Shown: positions 1,833 to 60,125 of the stretch, piece by piece
How positions within the stretch are numbered: position 1 is the stretch's first letter
Layout of the letters: each line of letters starts with the position of its first letter
Source of the DNA: Ceratothoa steindachneri
Lineage: Eukaryota; Arthropoda; Malacostraca; Isopoda; Cymothoidae
NCBI GenBank assembly: GCA_963969495.1
Contig: OZ018323.1
Location: forward strand, 76,036,920 to 76,100,919
Reading direction: 5' to 3'
DNA: 64,000 bases
Position numbers and translations under genes: made by a program
Notes under the pieces: model-generated
What the model saw: the letters and a program-made list of their open reading frames with translations, nothing else
Told to the model about the DNA's origin: nothing
Databases searched by the model: none

Positions 1833-2011
1833 CCGTACCTCGGACCGGCTATTAGAGGGAAAAAAAGTTTTACCAGAAATCGGTAGTTAGAAGAATTTTG
1901 TAGCTTGCCCTTCTCCAGACCGTTTTTTTCCTTGCGGTTCTGTTTTCTTTGAAGGCTCTGATGTGACGTCAGAACTTTAAAACTTGGAAGAAATACACAT
2001 ACTTTGGCGAA

Positions 2012-2968
2012 ACGTAGGAGGACTTAGACAATTGTATCATTCAAAAGAGAATGTAAAACAACATAAGTGTTTTAGATTTCGTTAGAATCGGCCGAATAGT
2101 TACAATGTTATTACAAAAACGAAAAATTAAGCAAAACGGGGACCGACCGACCGTCGACATAGTGAGATGTAGTGTCGCTCGCAACTAGCCTCATAAACGA
2201 CTAAAAAAAATTTTTAATTAATCACTGTTCTTTCGAATATTTACAAAAAGAGAGGCAATACTATAAGGGAACAGTGCTGTTTTTAGAGCACTTATCCATT
2301 AGGTTTCCAATACCTCAAATGTTATTTTGGTTCAAAACGTAGACATTATAAGACTTCATACAACTTCAGAGTATTCATTTTTGAGGTTTCTTTGAGTGTC
2401 TTATTCCGTTATTACGATGTGGTCCCTAGCCCTATAAGTCATAATTTTTAGTCGCGTGCGAGTCTAGTCGCGAGCGACTCTACATCTCACTATGTGGGTC
2501 CCCGTTTTGCTTTTTTTGGTAATAACATTATAACTATTCAGCTGATTCTAACTAAATTTGAAACCCTTTTTTTGTTTTATATTCTTTTTCGAATGATATA
2601 ATTACCAAATTCCTCCCAATGTTAGCCCTGGAATTATTTTGTTTTTACAATAACATCATAACTATTCGGCTGATTCTAAAAGAAATTGAAAGCCTTATGT
2701 TGTTTTACATTTTCTTTCAAATGATACAATTGACAAGGTCCTCCTAAGGTTAGCCCGGGAATTATTTGGGAGGCAATAACATCATAACGATTAGGCCGAT
2801 TCTAACGAAATTTGAAACCCTTATGTTGTTTTACATTCTCTTCCAAATGTTAGAATTGCTAAGGTTGTCCCAAGGTTAGTCCATAAATTATTGAAAGTTT
2901 TGAAGGTCGTAAGCTCATAAATCAGAATAAGTGAGACCACGTGAATATTTGGTCAGCAGTCCTTGTTT
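2012..2968. mobile_element. foldback element FB1 (compact, both arms)
   Basis: Two long arms face each other: 2012-2214 and 2455-2968. The arms share inverted blocks, including CAAAACGGGGACC...ATAGTGAGATGTA on the left and its reverse complement at about 2483-2513. The outer part of each arm is built of subrepeats of about 120 bp; the right arm has roughly three, starting near 2519, 2637 and 2771, each carrying a version of AACATCATAACTATTCGGC. The left arm is shorter, so it looks outer-truncated. The right terminus (GGTCAGCAGTCCTTGTTT) is shared with the element ending near 31426, and its reverse complement resembles the left end of the element starting near 10175. No transposase frame lies inside, so it is non-autonomous. 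Long inverted arms made of direct subrepeats are the hallmark of foldback transposons. Confidence 0.7.
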
Positions 2969-10174: not shown

Positions 10175-12350
10175 AACAAGGTCTACATAGCAAAAAGTCG
10201 CGTGCTCTCACCTATAATGATTTATGACCTTAGGACCCTTAAAACCTTCAATAATTCAGGGACTAACCTTGGGATGTCCTTGTAAATTATAGCATTCGAA
10301 AGATAATGTAAAACAACATAATGATTTCAAATTTCGTTAGTATCGGCCGAATAGTTATGATGTTATTGCCAAATAATTGCCAGGATAACCTTGGGAGGAA
10401 TTTGGCAATTATATCATTAGAAAGAGAATGTAAACAACATAAGGGTCTCAGATTTCGTTAGTATGTGCCGAATAGTTATGATGTTATTTCCAAAACAAAA
10501 TTATTCCCGGGATTACCTTGGGTTGTGGTGTTGGTATAGGTGGTGGTGGTGGTGTAGTTGGTATATATGGCGGTGGTTGTTGTGGTGTAGGTGGCGGTGG
10601 TGTAGGTTGTGTTGGTGTAGGTATCGGTGGTAGTGCTTTAGGTTGTGGCATTGTAAGTGGTAGTGGTGGTGTAGGTGTTGTAAGAGGTGGTAGTGGCGTA
10701 GGTGGGAGTGACGTAGGTGATGTGGGTCTTAGATTTCGTCAGTATGTGCCGAATAGTTATGATGTTATTTCCAAAACAAAATTATTCCCGGGATTACCTT
10801 GGGTTGTGGTGTTGGTGTAAGTGGTTGTAATGTAGGTCTCTGTGGTGTAGGTGGTGGTAGTGTAGGTAGCGTTGGTGTAGGTATAGGTGGTAGTGCTTTA
10901 GGTTGTGGCATTGTAAGTGGTAGTGGTGGTGTAGGTGTTGTAAGAGGTGGTAGTGGCGTAGGTGTGAGTGACGTAGGTGGTGTTGGTGTAGGTGGTGTTG
11001 GTGTAGGTGCAGGTGATAGTGGTTTAGGTTGTGATGGTGGTGTAGGTGATGTAAGAGGTGGTGTATGTGGCGGTGGTGGTTATGGTGTAGGTGGTGGTGG
11101 CGTAAGTGGTGTTGGTATAGGTATAGGTGGTAGTGCTTTAGGTTGTGGCATTGTAAGTGGTAGTGGTGGTGTAGGTGTTGTAAGAGGTGGTAGTGGCGTA
11201 GGTGGTAGTGACGTAGGTGATGTTGGTGTAGGTCCAGGTGATAGTGGTTTAGGTTGTGATGGTGGTGTAGGTGATGTAAGAGGTGGTGTTTGTGGCGGTG
11301 GTGGTTGTGGTGTAGGTTGTGGTTTTGGTGTAGGTGGTGATGGCGTATGTGTTTTTAGTGTAGGTATAGTTGGTAGTGCTTTAGATTGTGTCATTGTAAG
11401 TGGTAGTGGCGTAGGTGGTGTTTGTGTAGGTGCAGGAGATAGTGGTTTAGGTTGTGATGGTGGTGTAGGTGATGTAAGGGGCGGTGCATGTGGTGGTGTG
11501 TAGGTGGTGCAGGTGGGAGTGGTCTAGGTGGTGGTGAAAGAGGTAGTGTAAATAGTGGTGGTGGTGGTGCAGGTGGTGTTTGTGTAGGTGGTGTTGGTGC
11601 AGGTGGTGTTTGTGTAGGTGGTGTTGGTGTAGGTGGTAGTGATGTAAGGATATCGCTGGTGTAGGTGGCGGTGTGTATGTTGTGGTGGTGTAGGTCGTGG
11701 CGTTATAGTTGATAGTGGTGTAGATAGTGATGGTGTTGTATCTAGTGATATTTGTGTAGATATTGCTGTAGGTGGTGGTGGTGGTATAGGTGGTGGTGGT
11801 GCAGGCATCGGTGGTGTAGGTGGTGGTGGATGTAAGTGGTAGTGGTGTAGGCGGTGGTGGTGTAGGCAGTGGTGGTGTAGGCGGTGGTGGTGTAGGCAGT
11901 GGTGGTGTGGGCGGTGGTGGTGGTGGTGTAGGCGGTGGTGGTGTAGGCGGTGGTGGTGTAGATGGCGTAGGTAGTGGTGGTGGTGTAGGTGGTGGTGGTA
12001 TAGGTGGTGTTGGTGTAGCTGGTGGTGTTGTATGCAGTGTAAGTGATGGTGGTGTAGGTGGTGTTGGTTTAGGTGGTGTTGGTGTTGTAGGTGGCTTAAG
12101 TGGTGTGGGTGGCATAGGTGGCGTAAGTGGTGTAGGTGGTGGTGGTGTAGGTGGTTTAGTTTATGTAGGTGATGATTTGAAAGAGAATGTAAAACAACAA
12201 AAGGGATTCAAACTTTGTTAGAATAGACCGAATAGTTACAATGTTATTACAAAAACAAAAAAAGTAACACGGGGACTAATCAACCGACGACACAGTGTGA
12301 TGTAAAGTCGCCCGCGATTAGACTCAAACGCGACTAAATACGTGTTAAAT
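10175..12350. mobile_element. foldback element FB2, left arm with expanded minisatellite
   Basis: The left end (ACAAGGTCTACATAG...GTCGCGTGCTCTCACC) is the reverse complement type of the right ends of FB1 and FB3. It is followed by subrepeats of about 121 bp (TTTCGTTAGTAT...GCCGAATAGTTATGATG near 10331 and 10452, and again near 10733). Each subrepeat ends in CCCGGGATTACCTTGGG or similar, and at this junction a G/T-rich minisatellite takes over until about 12170. The arm then resumes with GAATAGTTACAATGTTATTAC and the inner block ACGGGGAC...GTGTGATGTA, matching 2100-2170 of FB1. The opposite arm is missing, so the element is half-deleted. No transposase is encoded. Confidence 0.65.
10518..12170. 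repeat. G/T-rich GGTGGTGTAGGT-type minisatellite
   Basis: About 1.65 kb of degenerate repeats built from GGTGGT, GGTGTAGGT and GGCGGT, with very little C on the plus strand. A higher-order unit is visible: GGTAGTGCTTTAGG recurs near 10628, 10888, 11128 and 11372 (spacing about 240-260). A 281 bp unit including foldback subrepeat sequence is repeated at the 5' edge (10518 versus 10799). Because the unit is a multiple of three, glycine/valine-rich frames open on the plus strand (10518-10820, 10799-11503, 11820-12221) and threonine/proline-rich ones on the minus. They have no supported start, shift frame and share no domain, so I regard them as by-products. Confidence 0.9.
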
Positions 12351-13460: not shown

Positions 13461-14764
13461 TGTGATAGAACGGTTTGAGGCTGCTAAATTTCAACCGTTA
13501 TCACATGTTGTTTAAAAACACGAGGCTACCCACGTGCATCTTCGCTTTGAAGCTGGGCGCATTATAGCCGCCACCTGAGTCAATGTTTAAACAAGGAGGT
13601 TTATCTTCCCCCGTTTCGCCCCATGCGCCGTCCTCGCCAGATTGAGTTAGGCTTATGGGCAGATAAGGTATTGTTCTCAGGCGTGGCTGTGCATTCCCTC
13701 GAAGCCCCACTCCATTGTCCCCTACGCCAAGGGAATGTCCCGACTATTTATACGGGAACTTTACCTCTAAGATCAGATTCGAGATCCAGATTTTCTTCGC
13801 GAAACATCACTACGATCCACTCTCACTTTGTGCGCCAAGGGTCCTCGACCTCAAGATCCACCATCACTTGTCCAGAAGAAGGACAATATCCCTTGAGTGC
13901 CAAGGTTCGAGCCTTCGTGACGCCAAGTCCACAAGGCTTCACCTGTTGTTCAGAAAAAGGACAACGTTAGAACAGCCATTGTTCTTTTGAGCCTGTTGAC
14001 AAGAAACGGTTCTCCCTCCCCCCCCCTTGTTGTTCAGAAGAGAACAACGTAGAACAGCCATTGTTCTTCCAGCCCGTTCGCCAAGAAACGGTTCTCACCC
14101 TTCCCCCTTGTTGTTCAGAAGATAACAACATTAGAACAGCCATTGTTATTCAGCCCGTAGACAAGAGACGGTTCTCACCCACCCTGTTGTTCACAAGAGA
14201 ACAACGTAGAACAGCCATTGTTCTTCAAGCCCGTTCGTCAAGAAACGGTACTCATTCCCAAGACGCCACGTCAGGATCATTTAATTCCCCCCCCCCTTTG
14301 GCTGGAATTCACCAGTGGACCAAAGATTCCTTCACGTCGCCTTCCTCTGCACAACAAGTGTACTTACGTAAGCTGAACGTTACCTTTGAGTATTTAACCC
14401 TTTTGTCAACCCAATCCTGTGCTTTAAATGGTTTAGCGAACGATCCCATCCCTTTAACTTTTATTTGTTTTACCTTTTTAAATCTCTCTTAATCCTCGGA
14501 TTAGCTAGATTTCCCACGACCCTTTCCATTCTCTGTTTATGTCAATATTTTCCGTTTTTTGTGTTGTTGATAGTTTTTATTAATAAAACTCTATTTTATT
14601 AATGATAGTAATATTATTATCCTTGAGCTCAGTTCCACTTCTTAAGCATATCGAAGATAAATAATATCGGTCAACCCAGACACCACGCACTCTGAAGATA
14701 ATTAAATAAGTTCCCTCAACGAATAGTCATATATGGTATATCGTCGAGAGTCCATTCTACGACA
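13461..14764 (+). mobile_element. solo LTR 1 (Gmr1-associated family)
   Basis: The segment starts TGTGATAGAAC and ends CTACGACA, matching the TG...CA ends of the LTR at 44074-45320, and is flanked on both sides by CTCTC, a perfect 5-bp target-site duplication. Internal support includes the AATAAA-containing stretch near 14580 and the terminal block with CGCACTCT...ATATGGTATAT, both paralleled in the other LTRs. No internal retrotransposon sequence adjoins it, so it is a solo LTR. It sits inside the minus-strand LTR element C. Confidence 0.8.
13943..14255 (+). repeat. tandem repeat of about 80 bp inside solo LTR 1
   Basis: Four diverged copies of a unit containing TTGTTGTTCAGAAGA, AACAGCCATTGTTCTT and CAAGAAACGGTTCTC. 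The units begin near 13943, 14028, 14109 and 14184, so the period varies between about 73 and 85 bases. The other LTRs of the family in this window lack this array, so it expanded in this copy or subfamily. Confidence 0.8.
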
Positions 14765-20963: not shown

Positions 20964-21163
20964 NNNNNNNNNNNNNNNNNNNNNNNNNNNNNNNNNNNNN
21001 NNNNNNNNNNNNNNNNNNNNNNNNNNNNNNNNNNNNNNNNNNNNNNNNNNNNNNNNNNNNNNNNNNNNNNNNNNNNNNNNNNNNNNNNNNNNNNNNNNNN
21101 NNNNNNNNNNNNNNNNNNNNNNNNNNNNNNNNNNNNNNNNNNNNNNNNNNNNNNNNNNNNNNN
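20964..21163. other. assembly gap of 200 N
   Basis: Exactly 200 N, the conventional placeholder for a scaffold gap of unknown size. It separates interspersed repeat S from a mariner fragment, both repetitive, which explains the break. Confidence 0.99.
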
Positions 21164-21944: not shown

Positions 21945-22345
21945 AATGTGGACTTGGTTGGGCTCCTTAGAGGATGCAAAAGCATGGCGGACTTGATGAT
22001 TGGTGGGGACCGAATCAACAATCCCCACCTGAGGGTGCCGACCCTTCGGACGGGTTTTGTTTATTCGGAGTTACTTCCATCATACATAGAGATGGGTGAG
22101 ACACCCTCTATGGTACTGGCCGGTCCCGCAGGGTAGGTTAGCAACCTCCCCGCAGGTTGAAACTCCGGCCCAAATCCAGGATGCCTCTTGACCTCGGGTT
22201 CCGCATTGGGCTAGACCGCAAACCTCCTTTCCCCAAGGCCTACAATTATGTCTCTCTAAATGAAAGGCAAAGTTGCACCGAGGCTATGTGTAGAGTCTCA
22301 CCCACGGTGCGAACTCAGCGAAGCGGGAAAGGGGAGGGGAGTATT
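21945..22345 (+). repeat. interspersed repeat S, copy 2
   Basis: Homologous to 20560-20963. Its 3' half (from 22129) is also the first part of the tandem-duplicated 3.08 kb unit and recurs at 25212-25428. It ends near GAAGCGGGAAAGGGGAGGGG. Confidence 0.7.
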
Positions 22346-23102
22346 TAGGCCATCATGTTTACTGAAAGCCTAAATACAGTATTTACTCTCTGGTAGGGTG
22401 TAGGGGGGCAAGCAGTGACGGAGGTGGAGGTCGACCAACGGTGAATATCTTGGTCGAGTGCACATCAAAGCAGTCCGCTCCTTGTATGGTTTGGTAGGCC
22501 GATGGCGTTCCTTCCGGCTTGCCTCCTGATTCCAAAAGGCCAGGGGAAGAGCAAGTAAGTTGTTGACTCTCTGAGATCACAGCGACGGATGAATAATGAG
22601 TATACGATACAATATATTTAGAGAGAAATACAATGATTTTTTACAAATATTTAAAAATAAATACATATATGTAAAAATAAATAGTGGTTAAAGGTGGCGG
22701 AAAAATTCAGCAGAGAAGAGAAAGTAACAAGTATGAGAAAGCGATAAGTGGATGCTCCCGGTGTAACAAAATGTCAGATTGTTGATTCTATACAATTTTA
22801 ATTTTTAGACATATATGTATATGAATTGGATTATTTACGTTTGGTTATGTTACATATTACTGTAATATTTTCAAATTTTTAAAAGTAATTTTTACAATAT
22901 TATTTTTTTAATATAATCGAAAGAGATGGAATATTTATATTGGATATCTATGCTTTGCATGAGTTTTATTATATGTATTTTAAATATTTATTATGTTTAG
23001 AAGTTGATAGGTTTTTTACTTTTGATTTAGATAAGGTCACTTTACTATAAGTTAATTTATCACTTTTTTATCTAAATTTATTTTAATTACTTTAATATAT
23101 AT

Positions 23103-25211
<2,109 letters not shown>

Positions 25212-26185
25212 CAGGGTAGGTTAGCAACCTCCCCGCAGGTTGAAACTCCGGCCCAAATCCAGGATGCCTCTTGACCTCGGGTTCCGCATTGGGCTAGACC
25301 GCAAACCTCCTTTCCCCAAGGCCTACAATTATGTCTCTCTAAATGAAAGGCAAAGTTGCACCGAGGCTATGTGTAGAGTCTCACCCACGGTGCGAACTCA
25401 GCGAAGCGGGAAAGGGGAGGGGAGTATTTAGGCCATCATGTTTACTGAAAGCCTAAATACAGTATTTACTCTCTGGTAGGGTGTAGGGGGGCAAGCAGTG
25501 ACGGAGGTGGAGGTCGACCAACGGTGAATATCTTGGTCGAGTGCACATCAAAGCAGTCCGCTCCTTGTATGGTTTGGTAGGCCGATGGCGTTCCTTCCGG
25601 CTTGCCTCCTGATTCCAAAAGGCCAGGGGAAGAGCAAGTAAGTTGTTGACTCTCTGAGATCACAGCGACGGATGAATAATGAGTATACGATACAATATAT
25701 TTAGAGAGAAATACAATGATTTTTTACAAATATTTAAAAATAAATACATATATGTAAAAATAAATAGTGGTTAAAGGTGGCGGAAAAATTCAGCAGAGAA
25801 GAGAAAGTAACAAGTATGAGAAAGCGATAAGTGGATGCTCCCGGTGTAACAAAATGTCAGATTGTTGATTCTATACAATTTTAATTTTTAGACATATATG
25901 TATATGAATTGGATTATTTACGTTTGGTTATGTTACATATTACTGTAATATTTTCAAATTTTTAAAAGTAATTTTTACAATATTATTTTTTTAATATAAT
26001 CGAAAGAGATGGAATATTTATATTGGATATCTATGCTTTGCATGAGTTTTATTATATGTATTTTAAATATTTATTATGTTTAGAAGTTGATAGGTTTTTT
26101 ACTTTTGATTTAGATAAGGTCACTTTACTATAAGTTAATTTATCACTTTTTTATCTAAATTTATTTTAATTACTTTAATATATAT

Positions 26186-29239
<3,054 letters not shown>

Positions 29240-30929: not shown

Positions 30930-31426
30930 CTGTGAGCAAAGAATGTAGATCACCTACACCATCACCACCCACACCACCACATACACCACCACCTACAACA
31001 CCATCACCTACAACACCACCACCTACACCACCGACACCTACAACGCCACCACCTACAACACCAACACTTACACCACCACCACCTACATCATCTCACCTAC
31101 ATCACCACTACCTACACCACCACCAACTACACCACCATCACCTACATCCCCACCACCTACACCCCCACCACCTACATCACCACCACCTTAGACTACCACC
31201 ACCCAAGGTTATCCCGGGAATTATTTTGTTGGAGCAATAACATCATAACTTTTCGGCCGATACTAACAAAATTTGAAATCCTTATGTTGTTTTCCATTCT
31301 CTTTCGAATGACATAATTGGCAATGTCCACCCAAGTTTAGTCCAGGAATTATTGAAAGTTTTGAAAGTCAAAGCTTTCAAATCAGTATAAGTGAGAGCAC
31401 GCGACTTTTGGTCAGCAAACCTTGTT
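30930..31426. mobile_element. foldback element FB3, right arm with minisatellite
   Basis: From left to right: a CCACCACCTACA-type minisatellite (about 30945-31200), which is the reverse complement of the GGTGGTGTAGGT array of FB2; then foldback subrepeats (AAGGTTATCCCGGGAATTATTTTG, ...CATCATAACTTTTCGGCCG); then the terminus GTCAGCAAACCTTGTTT, equal in type to the right end of FB1. Only the right arm is present. The order minisatellite, subrepeat, terminus mirrors FB2 exactly in reverse. Confidence 0.7.
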
Positions 31427-35465: not shown

Positions 35466-35743
35466 GACTTTGATGATATTTCAATGCGTCCTTGATTTAG
35501 GGCAATTGTTTATTTCCGTTTCATCATGTCCAGAATCTTAATCCCATTTATACTTTCCTTTAGCTACGCCTTCGACAATGTCTTTATTGTTTGTTAATCG
35601 TATCGACTTTGATGATATTTCAATGCGTCCTTGATTTAGGGCAATTGTTTATTTCCGTTTCATCATGTCCAGAATCTTAATCCCATTTATACTTTCCTTT
35701 AGCTACGCCTTCGACAATGTCTTTATTGTTTGTTAATCGTATC
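35466..35743. repeat. perfect 139 bp tandem duplication
   Basis: The 139 bases 35466-35604 (GACTTTGATGATATTTCAAT...) are repeated at once at 35605-35743 with no difference seen. The copies lie in the LINE between ORF1-like and endonuclease regions. Perfect identity implies a recent event or an assembly artefact. Confidence 0.9.
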
Positions 35744-36694
35744 GAATGAGGTAGATTGGTACCCCCTAGATCTTGATATTGGTTTAGGGGGATTTGTTCT
35801 TGGTTTGTTCTTTTTATTTTTCCTTTGTTTCTCTTGTGTCGCTTTTTGGAGGTTGTCGTTTGTTCATTTTTTGTTTCTGTTCTGGACTCATAAATACTCG
35901 GTGGAGTTTGCTGGAAGTTGGGATTTGGGGGAATCACATTGGTTTTAGGCCGTTCTTTATCAACATTTTTGTAGCTATTCTGTGTATGTGCCGGGTTTAG
36001 CCATATTTACGAAGTGAGCATGTAAGATGCACAATATGAAGTCTAGCCTCCCATTGCCCTAGATATGTATTTACTATTCACAGTCTTTTGTTCTGGGGCG
36101 AGTCTTGATGCTGTTGCTGCGGCATACATAGTCGTTTTTCTGCATTCTTTTATTTGATTATGGCGGTCTTCATCATCTTGGTGATTTGTCTATTCATTTT
36201 CACGACATCGCGAGGGCGGATTGCGGGATTCCGCAGTTGAGACATTTTTTGTTCCACCTGTGATCGAGACTTGCACATTCGTCGCTTGTTGATCCATGCC
36301 GTAGCATTTGAAATAGACCTGAACACAAAGGAAGGTTTCCCTCTCAATCTAATCTGGTGCTACTTCGGTCATTTTCGTTTCTTTGAAGATGATCTTGAAT
36401 GCATGTGTTTTCTTCGCCTGGGTTTTTTTTAATTCTATTATCTCGTCTAATTTAACCCAGGAAAGTTTTTTCAATTTCGATCTTGATTTATTCTACCATG
36501 TGCTCTCCTATCCAAGGATCAAGGCACCTTAAGGCAACCGATCTTTTGGTCGTGGCGGGAAGGAGTGTTCGGGCGGCAAGTCCAATTATTTGTAACTTTT
36601 TGGTGGCATTTTTGCCGTGTAAATTATCCAGGTCCTTTTCTGCATCGCACAGCGCAACGTAGCCGTTATATTGGTCTTTCAGTCTCAATACCAC
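35677..36694 (-). pseudogene. putative LINE ORF1 region
   Basis: Minus-strand short frames upstream of the endonuclease: 36488-36694, 36150-36347 and 35677-35937. A degenerate cysteine cluster is readable in shifting frames around 36200-36330 (FKCYGMD..., KKCLNCG), compatible with the zinc knuckles of Jockey/I-type ORF1 proteins. The last frame is rich in Lys, Thr, Asn and Gln. Evidence is positional plus these weak motifs. Confidence 0.35.
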
Positions 36695-42099: not shown

Positions 42100-43010
42100 C
42101 GTCCCTGCCAGGCGAGACCGACTTATCAATTAATAGGCTGAAAATCGACGAGTGGCTGACATCACAACAACGAAATCAACTCCAGCCCCTCCTTAGTCAG
42201 TTTAGTGACATCATTTTCGAAAACCCTGGATTTGCCACTCAGTTTGATTACGACATCAAGCTCACGACACAGGAACCGGTTTGATCTAAACCATATCCCT
42301 TACCCATTCACATGAGGCAAGCCTTTAATTTAGAGATGGAAAATTTGCTCCAATTAAACATAATTGAGCCCTCTACTTCTTATTATTGCTCGCCGATAGT
42401 CATGGTTAAGAAACCCGATGGTTCTTATAGGATGTGTGTCGACTTTCGGAAACTAAATTGAGTCACCGTTTTCGACGCCGGACACATCCCTCTGATAGAT
42501 CAAAACCTCCATCTGTTTGATGAAGTGAAATTTATTACTAAACTCGATCTGTGTAAAGCCCATTACCAAATTTCGCTCAAGAAAGAAATAAGGAAATTTA
42601 CGGCGTTTGCTACAGACAAAGGACTCATGCAGTTCCGTCGGCTCCCCTTTGGGCTAGTAACCACCTGTAGCAATTATAATCGGTTAATGCGGAGAATTAT
42701 GGATGGTTTGCCAGATACCTCTTTCTATTTTGACAATATTTATATTGCTACTCGCGACTGGGACCAACATTTAGTATCCCTTCGAGGCTTACTAACCCGG
42801 TTACTAGAAAATTGTCTTATTATTGGCCCCGGTAAGTGCCACTTCGCCTTTGAAACCAGTAAATATTTAGGTTTTAATATTTGGGAAACCCAACTCAGTC
42901 CCCAAGAGGAGAAGATTAAGGCGATCGTCGATATGCCTCTTCCTGGCAATAATAAGCAGCTCCGGTCATTCATGGGATCCGCTTCATTCTACTAATGCTT
43001 TGTCCCAAAT
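42100..43010 (+). pseudogene. Gmr1-like reverse transcriptase
   Basis: RT lies downstream of integrase. Motifs in order: FSDIIFENPGFATQFDYDIK (pre-RT linker, 42200s), MENLLQLNIIEPSTSYYCSP, VMVKKPDGSYRMCVDFRKLN (42400s), FITKLDLCKAHYQISL with the first catalytic Asp (near 42545), FRRLPFGLVTT, then FYFDNIYIATRD near 42728, where the usual Y-x-D-D is F-D-N, losing the second Asp. YLGFNIWETQLSPQEEKI marks the connection. Stops occur at 42284, after RKLN near 42460, and at 42995. Confidence 0.9.

Positions 43011-56951: not shown

Positions 56952-57018
<67 letters not shown>
56952..57018. repeat. (TA)n microsatellite left of Penelope-like element
   Basis: About 67 bases of TA ending exactly where the inverted Penelope pseudo-LTR begins. 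Confidence 0.97.
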
Positions 57019-57022
<4 letters not shown>

Positions 57023-57555
57023 AAAATTAATGCAATATCGCAAGAAAAGATGAGGAATTAAACCACATTCTCCCAAGACAATTTAATTCAGAACAGTTTC
57101 GGTGTATCTTACACCCTTTTTCAACTGACACTGGATAGAAAATATAGGAAAAAAATGCATACAAGCATAACAGGTCGTGAAATATCCCCTCTTTTATCCC
57201 CAATCCCCTACTTGTGGCTAATCTGGGAGGGGGGCGGGTTAGGCCTAAACATATTAAAGGGCTGACATTTTACTATTTTATTTATTTGCTTTCTTATTAC
57301 AGGATTAAAAGAAAATTGACCCTCAGATAGATCTTAATTAGGAACTGACGATATCAAGCTCGATTCTACGATTCTTCTCTTAACATAGTTAGCCGATTTA
57401 AATACCATTTTACTTCCATTGAAATCGATCGTATGATTCTTGTCTCTAACGTGGCAAAATATTCCACTGCTTTCGCTGACCACTCTAATATCTCTTTTAT
57501 GTTCATACAATCTCTTGTCTAGATTTCTCCCCGTTTCCCCTATATAAACTTTATC
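57019..57555 (-). mobile_element. inverted Penelope pseudo-LTR with partial endonuclease sequence
   Basis: This is the reverse complement of roughly 59905-60410 plus the extra terminal sequence: pseudo-LTR (57019-57300) followed by an inverted stretch of the GIY-YIG coding end (57305-57555). Together with the direct pseudo-LTR at 57556-57842 it makes a large hairpin with arms of about 285 bases. An inverted partial copy upstream of the main body is a regular feature of Penelope-like elements and results from their mode of integration. Confidence 0.9.
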
Positions 57556-57842: not shown

Positions 57843-60125
57843 AATACCACGAGAAGAGACAACCAACTCAGGAATCTTTTCCATCTCCATCCTGAGCATA
57901 TTCCTCTGTTTAGGGAATATGAGAGAAACTTATTGCGTACTAAGAAGACCAAACTTCAATGGGACTTTTTAAATAACTGCTTGCAAGAAAAAATCGTTCC
58001 GACTACCCTACTTACAACATCTTTAAGAAAGTCCAGTGATGTTCCGTTTAACATTATACACAGTTGTATATTAAAAGAACGTGTAGAAAACGCCAAGCGA
58101 GAAGTGAACACTTTCCTATTCAAAGTGAGACGGTCAAGAAGAAATCTGTTTGATAAGTGCGGTGAATTTTTAGGGGATCATGCAGTTTCTGTGATTGAAT
58201 CAAGTGTTTAGGATAAAATCCTTCATCATAGCAATTATTTGAAGTGGAAACTTAACTGAATTTTCATGAACAGTCTTTGGATTAAAGGTTCATACCCAAT
58301 TAAAAATATTCTGAATTTATCATCTCATGTACTGACTGATGATGAAAAATTTGCGTTAGGATACCGTTTAAGCTTTTCAATTAAGTCATGCGATGAGTTC
58401 TCACTAGACCATTTAGTATCCATAGCCAAATCCTCACATGAGCAAATAAGTGGTGAATTTCTTAGTGGCTGTATGCTTAGTGCCCTAAATTCTGAAAAGT
58501 ATGACCAAATTGGTTTTCCCAAAAGATTTCAGATTGCGTTAAATAAACTTAAATTTAATAACAACATTGTTATAACCAAATCCGATAAAACGAATCAGTT
58601 AGTCATTTTGGACAAACATAGTTATAATGATAAACTAAATGAACTTCTTAATGATGTGAACACATATGAAAAGCTACAAAGTGATCCGCTCAATAACAAA
58701 ACAAGCAATTTCAACAACAAATTGAAGAGAATACTAAAAAGCGCAGATTTAATTAAACAATTCAGGAGTACGAACCCTTCACTTCCCTATATGTATGGGC
58801 TCCCAAAGACCCACAAAGAGGGATGTCCCTTACGCCCAATCATTTCCAATATTAATTCTCCCACTTATAAGCTCTCCAAATGGCTCGCCAAGCATTTATC
58901 TCCAGCAGTTGGAAGAATCTCATCTGCACACATTATAAACACTCAAGATTTCGTTGACCGCCTCAACCACTTGCAATTACCGGATGGAAAACTTTTGAGC
59001 TTTGATGTAAACTCTTTGTTTACCAAAGTTCTGGTTGACCAAACCATGGGCGTTCTGCGGGAAATCATGCCTAGACTTAATTTGGATCTTCCCATTTCTA
59101 CGAGTAAATTTATCGATTTAGTTAAATTATGTCTCTCTGACAATGTGTTTCGAGTAAATAATGAGTTTTATAGACAAATATTTGGCCTTAGCATGGGAAA
59201 TAGTTTATCTCCGATATTGGCATGTCTCTTCATGGAATATTTTGAGACTGAACTCCTTCCCACAATTTCTCCCCCTAGCTTTATATGGTTAAGGTACATT
59301 GACGATGTATTTTCTGTATGGCCTAATGGCCATGATTTTGATACCTTTTTTAATAATTTGAATAATCTGCATGTCTCCATCAAATTTAAATATGAATGGG
59401 AATATGATAATAGATTACCCTTTTTAGATGTCCTCATTAATAAAGATCACTATGAATTAAAACTTGACGTGTATAGGAAACCAACCCACTCGAATGCCTA
59501 TATACATTATTTTTCGTTTCACGATAATACTGTTAAAAAATCGGTAATTTCTAACCTTTTCCTTAGAGCATACAAAATATGTCATTCTTCCTATTTAGAT
59601 GAAGAAATTGTCATTATCAGGACCATTTTTTCTAATTTGTATTACCCCGATTGGTTCATATCGTCTGCCCATTTTGCAGCTAGGAAAACATTATATGGTA
59701 ATAAGCCTTCCCGCACTAACGACTTCAACAAATGTATAACATTGCCATTTAATAATAAATTAAATAGTTTAAAGGACACATTTGGAAAAGCGGGTATTAA
59801 TCTAGCCTTTAAATATAAAAATTCCTTAAACCAATTGATGATTGCCAGGAAACCCAAAGAACATATTAACATAGGAGTTTATGCAATACCATGCAACGAT
59901 TGCCATAAAGTTTATATAGGGGAAACGGGGAGAAATCTAGACAAGAGATTGTACGAACACAAAAGAGATATTAGAGTGGTCAGCGAAAGCAGTGGAATAT
60001 TTTGCCATGTTAGAGACAAGAATCATACGATCGATTTCAATGGAAGTAAAATGGTATTTAAATCGGCTAAATATGTTAAGAGAAGAATCGTAGAATCGAG
60101 CTTGATATCGTCAGTTCCTAATTAA
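57840..60125 (+). pseudogene. Penelope-like RT plus GIY-YIG endonuclease, two in-frame stops
   Basis: Single-frame protein of about 761 codons interrupted only by TAG at 58209 and TGA at 58257; from the Met at 58266, 619 residues are open. The N-terminal part (57840-58211) is basic and helical. In the 619-residue frame, positions 95-120 have NIVITKSDKTNQLVILDK, then LPYMYGLPKTHK and PLRPIISNINSPTYKLSKWL. Motif A is LLSFDVNSLFT (Asp about 247), GLSMGNSLSPI follows, and motif C is RYIDDVFS (Asp-Asp 346-347), so the RT triad is intact. The C-terminal GIY-YIG nuclease has GVY (537), CNDC, YIGETGR (550) and RLYEHKRDI, with the catalytic Arg. It copies RNA at a nick that it makes. Recently active by appearance. 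Confidence 0.95.

Follow-up and report, generated by a model that had tools for sequence, protein, structure and literature searches.

According to the available sections of the papers concerned, non-autonomous Helentron-associated elements of the HINE/DINE-1/pearl kind carry central repeats that resemble satellites, along with short microsatellites and, in some cases, two arrays (PMC4067079, PMC7492417, PMC5139131, PMC9659126, PMC9957191, PMC11136912, PMC12628747 and PMC2374699). A 5' subterminal repeat followed by a partial inverted repeat and a microsatellite is published for DINE-1 and Cg_HINE (available text of PMC2374699, PMC4067079 and PMC7492417). The element described here is like Cg_HINE of the Pacific oyster in the 5' subTIR, the complementary inverted repeat, the short GTC-type microsatellite, the satellite-like central repeats, the 3' subTIR, which in Cg_HINE is followed by a palindrome, and the very many dispersed copies, as far as the accessible text of PMC7492417 describes them; Cg_HINE exceptionally contains two repeat arrays in a row (same text), whereas the present element has a minisatellite of up to 1.65 kb nested within one core repeat, at a constant position. 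The core unit is ~125 bp here but 140-180 bp in the most abundant oyster clusters (PMC7492417, available part), and the oyster elements are likened by description, not by sequence. With DINE-1/INE-1 of Drosophila it shares subTIRs, a partial inverted repeat at the 5' subTIR, a GTCY-rich microsatellite (in block A of DINE-1) and variable central repeats, and DINE-1 is further described with a stem-loop after the 3' subTIR, T-rich insertion sites and no target-site duplication (TSD) (available sections of PMC2374699 and PMC4067079). It differs from DINE-1, as these sections present it, in that the subTIR is ~10 bp instead of 13, the palindrome is weak and a minisatellite is nested in the core repeat. 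The distance from the 3' subterminal repeat to the end is ~21 nt, in contrast to 38-60 bp in mite HINEs (PMC4067079, available part). The pearl elements of bivalves (CvA, CvE, CvG and DTC84) are alike by description in having short core-repeat arrays between conserved ends, and the accessible text of PMC5139131 reports a microsatellite-like segment inside the CvA repeats, but the minisatellite found here is long. In the available sections of PMC9659126 and PMC9957191, no HINE core repeat is described in which a minisatellite is nested at a fixed position.

The window, which is the whole stretch of DNA analysed, covers positions 76036920-76100919 (64,000 nt) in the 3.93-Gb genome of Ceratothoa steindachneri. 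Three loci in this window (FB1, FB2 and FB3) are very probably copies of one abundant non-autonomous Helentron-associated (HINE/DINE-1/pearl) element, one group of which has its core repeat split by a GGT/GTA minisatellite. The kind of element is ordinary and very abundant; what is uncommon is that in some copies a core repeat contains a tandem array nested at a fixed position. The parts of the three loci are as follows, with coordinates accurate to a few bases.

2010..2205, minus strand: FB1 left copy, 3'-truncated; its 5' end faces the right copy over a ~240-bp spacer
2445..2967, plus strand: FB1 right copy, complete, without minisatellite; 5' end TTTTTAGTCGCGTGCGAGTCTAGTCGCGAGCGACT
10175..12338, minus strand: FB2, a single complete HINE-like copy whose pieces were placed by BLAST; alignment to other copies puts the 5' end at ~12338 and the 3' end (CCTTGTT) at 10175
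12263..12338, minus strand: FB2 5' module, with subterminal AGTCGCG, partial inverted repeat GGGCGACT and decayed (TCGG) microsatellite
12172..12263, minus strand: remainder of the FB2 core repeat split by the minisatellite (unit positions ~42-129)
10523..12171, plus strand (G-rich strand): FB2 GGT/GTA minisatellite, 1649 bp, period 3, peak at 15
10724-10803: partial core repeat, re-duplicated, inside the FB2 minisatellite
10250..10522, minus strand: two core repeats of FB2 (~122-128 bp) and the initial part of a third
10175..10250, minus strand: FB2 3' module, with subterminal GCACGCGACT, decayed short palindrome and CCTTGTT end
30946..31426, plus strand: FB3, a copy truncated on the 5' side, inside the minisatellite
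30946-31203, plus strand: FB3 minisatellite; core repeats come next, and then the 3' module as far as 31426

Within the window, the matches of terminus and inner block between the loci are 80-82% identical, and direct subrepeats of ~122-128 bp are detected in FB1, FB2 and FB3 by Tandem Repeats Finder. The initial annotation had the three loci share termini, ~120-bp subrepeats and inner blocks; the termini and subrepeats are common to all three, but the inner block is found in FB1 and FB2 only. It had also placed the same minisatellite at the same junction in two loci, and in both FB2 and FB3 the array indeed starts directly after CCCGGGAT(T/A)ACCTTGGG. The "mirror orientation" ascribed to these two loci amounts to the FB2 and FB3 copies lying on opposite strands.

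Several other features are seen in the window. A 3.08-kb stretch that includes a long AT repeat is present as a direct tandem duplication of 99.8% identity at 22129-28293, and this duplication is either recent or an artefact of assembly. A perfect tandem duplication of 139 bp in two copies lies at 35466-35745, an 82-bp repeat in about four copies with 82% matches at 13944-14254, and a run of 200 N, which is an assembly gap or a withheld stretch, at 20964-21163. A 619-aa frame at 58266-60125 gives a GIY-YIG match and a reverse transcriptase match, the latter below the cut-off of Pfam, a pair of domains found in Penelope-like elements. Similar stretches of ~600 bp lie near this frame at 56952-57554 and, inverted, at 60512-59905. 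A reverse transcriptase match is also found in a 156-aa frame at 42525-42995.

The element is non-autonomous and abundant, with thousands of copies genome-wide. A 36-nt pattern of its 3' end is found at 2380 genome places with at most two mismatches (reversed control, 0) and the ordinary core-repeat joint at 2859 (control, 0). One joint of the minisatellite, joint A, is found at 286 places with at most two mismatches (reversed control, 0). Copies with the minisatellite are probably a minority in the genome, because joint A is found at 286 places and the ordinary joint at 2859. The 336-bp terminus at 10175-10510, a query without minisatellite, gives 55 matches when the best 40 of 7354 candidates are scored. 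The initial annotation had proposed a genome search with this terminus and the FB1 arms; the terminus yields many copies, of which the complete ones are single units. The 20 best-matching other loci were sampled as 10-kb stretches and 8 lower-ranking ones as 2.5-kb stretches; one of these 8 (L033) was left out since its region is too short. The resulting 27 copies are the closest relatives of the 3' side of FB2 and not a random sample.

The strand on which copies are read was chosen to fit the published DINE-1/HINE elements. Read in this way, a unit consists, from 5' to 3', of a T run, the subterminal repeat AGTCGCG(T/G)GC, the partial inverted repeat GCGACT, CTACATCTCACTATG, (TCGG)n, ~125-bp core repeats, ATAAGTGAGAGCACGCGACT as the second subterminal repeat, TTTT, GGTCAGCAGACC and TTGTT. 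The paired ends of the element are TTTTAGTCGCG...GCGACTCTAYATCTC and GCACGCGACTTTTGGTCAGCAGACCTTGTT. Both ends of a single unit are kept in 16 of the 20 loci fetched first; the 5' end is missing from L011, L014 and L021 and the 3' end from L015. The number of core repeats varies from two to six per copy, with six in L014. Exact motifs are worn: AGTCGCG is found in 18 of 28 5' ends, TCGGTC in 23, TCGGTCGG and GCGACT in 15 each, AGTCGCG together with its inverted repeat in 11, and the exact 10-nt 3' subterminal repeat in 16 of the 34 copies read. A palindrome at the 3' end, GGTC-AGCA-GACC, is conserved in many copies, but its stem is only 4 bp. When five end-stretches from the window were folded as DNA, four, two 3' ends among them, were no more stable than shuffles, and one folded better (z -2.42; 6 of 200 shuffles as good). 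Hairpin energy is not used as evidence here. In a tree of 3'-end regions, which has weak support, copies with and without the minisatellite are not cleanly split, and the array-free L012 is placed with L013 (support 0.74). The sequence at L021:2831-3619, immediately after the broken minisatellite of that copy, matches flanking sequence of L010 and of L012, and these flanks match L015 and L024; the sequence is apparently another repeat family.

The minisatellite is present in 17 of the 27 sampled copies (13 of the first 20 and 4 of the next 7), and two of the ten array-free copies (L014 and L029) have lost the 5' part. In copies that retain both joints, the array lies between ...GGATAACCTTGGG and (GTAGGTGA)TGATTCGAAAGAGAATG inside one core repeat, and it replaces ~17 nt of the core unit at about unit position 27-42. 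Single joint bases vary among copies, and the far joint is lost in L011, L021 and L035. The length of the array ranges from 26 bp in L034 to 1649 bp in FB2 (920 bp in L023), and other sequence lies within the array in L019 and L026. According to the initial annotation, the array belongs to the mobile element and does not merely lie next to it by chance, and this is borne out by the same joints in different copies, with joint A found at 286 places and its control at none. An exact 24-mer of the array occurs at 42 genome places, of which ten were checked: four were fetched and are all in copies, five lie near joint A (~200 bp) and one is in L022. At one of these places, L049, joint A adjoins a broken copy, behind which another copy lies in inverted orientation. 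The contrary case named in the initial annotation, an array mostly outside the foldback arms, is not what these places present, since 10 of 10 places checked (of 42) are in or beside copies.

Among 13 copies, the 40 nt that adjoin either joint have an identity of 0.77, a value helped by the anchors, which contain 11 and 9 nt of array, and interior pieces are 0.69 identical (sd 0.02), with a maximum of 0.756 in 100 draws, below the joint-proximal value. The array is read as ancestral and single, with changes mostly in its interior. The minisatellite marks a subfamily of the element: the base C at a diagnostic site in CTACATCTC, which was picked after inspection of the copies, is present in 15 of the 15 copies that have both the array and a 5' end, including L034, for which the base is taken from a gapped alignment, but only in 3 of 11 array-free copies (Fisher P=1e-4). 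The copies without a 5' end (L011, L014, L021, L029, L035 and FB3) are not in this table, and the bearers of another array, L013R (T) and L031b (C), are tabled apart. FB1 is a pair of copies with ordinary units at the array site. Both of its copies have C at the diagnostic site, and FB1 is possibly the ancestral form and possibly a collapsed one, because both copies carry this base of the minisatellite subfamily.

The array has a period of 3 with a peak at 15. Its G strand contains 117 starts of two-tier G-quadruplex motifs, compared with 59 in base shuffles, a weak control in that single-base shuffling loses the 3-bp period, and its C strand contains none. Frames of 234 and 222 aa are present on opposite strands of the array because of its 3-bp periodicity, and a coding reading of the array was dismissed on inference, the frames being taken for artefacts.

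The core-repeat stretch replaced by the array is itself G-rich (CCTTGGGAGGA). The minisatellite may have been born once, in this stretch (CCTTGGGAGGA...), in the founder of the subfamily, and would then have been carried with the element while its middle was grown or shrunk by slippage or unequal exchange. That the minisatellite was instead acquired from another source through recombination, with no growth in place out of the core repeat, is a serious possibility, somewhat short of an even chance. Capture fits the replacement, not mere extension, of ~17 nt of the unit, and the presence, in some other copies, of a second, unrelated array elsewhere in the unit; replacement of a part of the monomer is discussed for oyster elements in the available text of PMC5139131. 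It is at odds with the G-rich nature of the replaced stretch and with L034, which has the same joints around just 26 bp of GGT repeats, and a free-standing source array was not encountered at the 10 places checked.

The second array, unrelated to the first, is a degenerate pentamer array of ~1.1 kb and of the TAGGCTATACTATGC type, and is joined to core repeats. It is nested in core repeats at the following places.

L013:3776-4868: pentamer array of the copy L013R
L031:987-2148: pentamer array
L051:1-190: pentamer array

L013R and L051 share the joint of this array, ...AGAGTATCGG|(CCG)AATAGTTATG of the unit. The second copy in L031 (947-2306) also has the array, but its joints differ from those of L013R and L051. 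A 401-nt piece of the L013 array matches 39 other scored places over nearly its full length at 84-91% identity (4037 candidates); among these places L051 alone was opened, on one side. The pentamer block is co-linear and old and not variable in length, because 39 places match the 401-nt piece nearly in full. Copies bearing it are read as a subfamily C, next to A with the GGT/GTA array and B with none. It is possible, but rather doubtful, that the core repeat gives rise to new tandem arrays, two of which would have originated within it, been fixed in subfamily founders and spread genome-wide. On such a reading, the GGT/GTA array would have arisen at unit position ~27-42 and the TAGGC-type pentamer at ~89, and growth of the GGT/GTA array may be driven by rolling-circle copying of a fold-prone strand with two-tier G-quadruplex motifs.

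The insertion sites were analysed in 14 copies, namely the 16 two-ended loci minus L020 and L024, whose 3' tips are worn or lost. There is no excess of TSDs of 2-9 bp over swapped flanks in these copies, and identical flanks of at least 6 bp, with 7, 8 and 9 bp included, are found in none of the 14. Position +1 of the 3' flank is T in 9 of 14 copies and the flank is T-rich as far as +6; the 5' flank outside the TTTT counted as element is T in 6 of 14, a weak T bias, and the 5' T run itself may be target or element. The L027 copy has inserted into a repeat whose paralogue in L022 is uninterrupted. When the L027 flanks are joined, they align over the join to L022 with 414 of 544 aligned bases identical (76%), and at this single such site there is no duplication, with three paralogue bases missing beside the join. 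The absence of a TSD and the anatomy of the element match the Helentron insertion described in the available sections of PMC4067079 and PMC2374699. The element would be copied as a single strand, from the 5' to the 3' end.

A TIR-type MITE of a cut-and-paste superfamily, with expanded internal repeats, is an improbable alternative. It would account for the AGTCGCG-type repeats, which lie near both ends in opposite sense, AGTCGCG(T)GC at the 5' end and GCACGCGACT ~21 nt from the 3' end. These inverted repeats are, however, subterminal and only ~10 bp long, the outermost ends are unlike (TTTTAG and CCTTGTT), and a TSD is absent in the 14 copies and at the L027 site. In its favour, DINE-1 itself was described as a MITE (PMC2374699, available part), and so was pearl (PMC7492417, available part).

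For the pairing of copies, the initial annotation had proposed a foldback element with long inverted arms. Foldback elements such as FB of Drosophila and Galileo have internal direct subrepeats and a target-site duplication of 7-9 bp. The element is like FB and Galileo in its internal direct subrepeats, but has no TSD, and no long inverted arms of a copy's own are present in any copy examined. An inverted pair is present in FB1 alone among the three loci of the window, and a second arm is absent at FB2 (10175-12338) and FB3 (30946-31426). Among the 27 sampled copies, a second copy adjoins in inverted orientation in two (L013 and L024) and as a direct tandem in one (L031); the other 24 have no partner within the stretch fetched, where the 2.5-kb stretches could miss partners further away. 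The 5' ends of inverted partners are turned towards each other, with spacers of ~40 bp (L013), 240 bp (FB1) and 560 bp (L024) between them; the spacers differ and look unrelated. The left and right copies of FB1 are 85.5% identical in their shared 5' part, which ranks 15th of 27 in similarity, and the partners at L013, L024 and L031 rank 21st, 18th and 16th of 27. For L013R, the identity in the tree comparison is low due to the inserted second array, and the tail comparison was used instead.

As judged from these sequences, the paired "arms" are two neighbouring, independently inserted copies, because partners are no more alike than random copies. An FB/Galileo-like foldback transposon, with long inverted arms made of subrepeats, is highly improbable: inverted pairs do exist at FB1, L013 and L024, but 24 of 27 sampled copies have no neighbouring second copy in the stretch fetched, the spacers differ, arm-to-arm similarity is no higher than similarity to random copies, the two ends of a single unit differ, and a TSD is absent. 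The foldback proposal thus does not hold, as complete copies are single units with two unlike ends. The pairs would come from copies inserted side by side with their 5' ends facing, and such adjacent insertions look commoner than chance for a 3.9-Gb genome with thousands of copies. Foldback transposons can easily be seen where two copies merely lie side by side in opposite orientation. A dispersed satellite or minisatellite with chance neighbours as its "ends" is barely credible: the core repeats do form short tandem arrays, but constant ends flank the array on both sides in 16 of 20 loci, and 10 of 10 minisatellite places checked (of 42) lie in or ~200 bp from copies.

The element is probably moved in trans by a Rep/helicase element. 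The Helitron Rep domain (PF14214) gives at least 151 matches in the genome, with the best 150 of 886 candidates scored. At C38:238973 (L045:2767-8301), an open frame of 1845 aa contains Rep and PIF1 helicase domains, in which no AP-endonuclease domain is detected at E<=0.001, and three neighbouring frames (205, 177 and 626 aa) give no Pfam match at E<=0.001. No autonomous partner with the ends described here was found, which counts against the Helentron-associated reading: these ends are absent from 15 kb around this frame (L045/L046), the sole Rep locus so compared, and the L045 Rep/PIF1 element is ruled out as the autonomous partner by its ends.

Non-autonomous Helentrons are already known to spread satellite-like repeats. 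With fixed joints, lengths from 26 bp to 1.6 kb and thousands of copies, the growth of an array on a moving element becomes measurable. If the core repeat is truly a birthplace of new tandem arrays, the element would build satellites in tiers, from microsatellite to minisatellite to core repeat to element.
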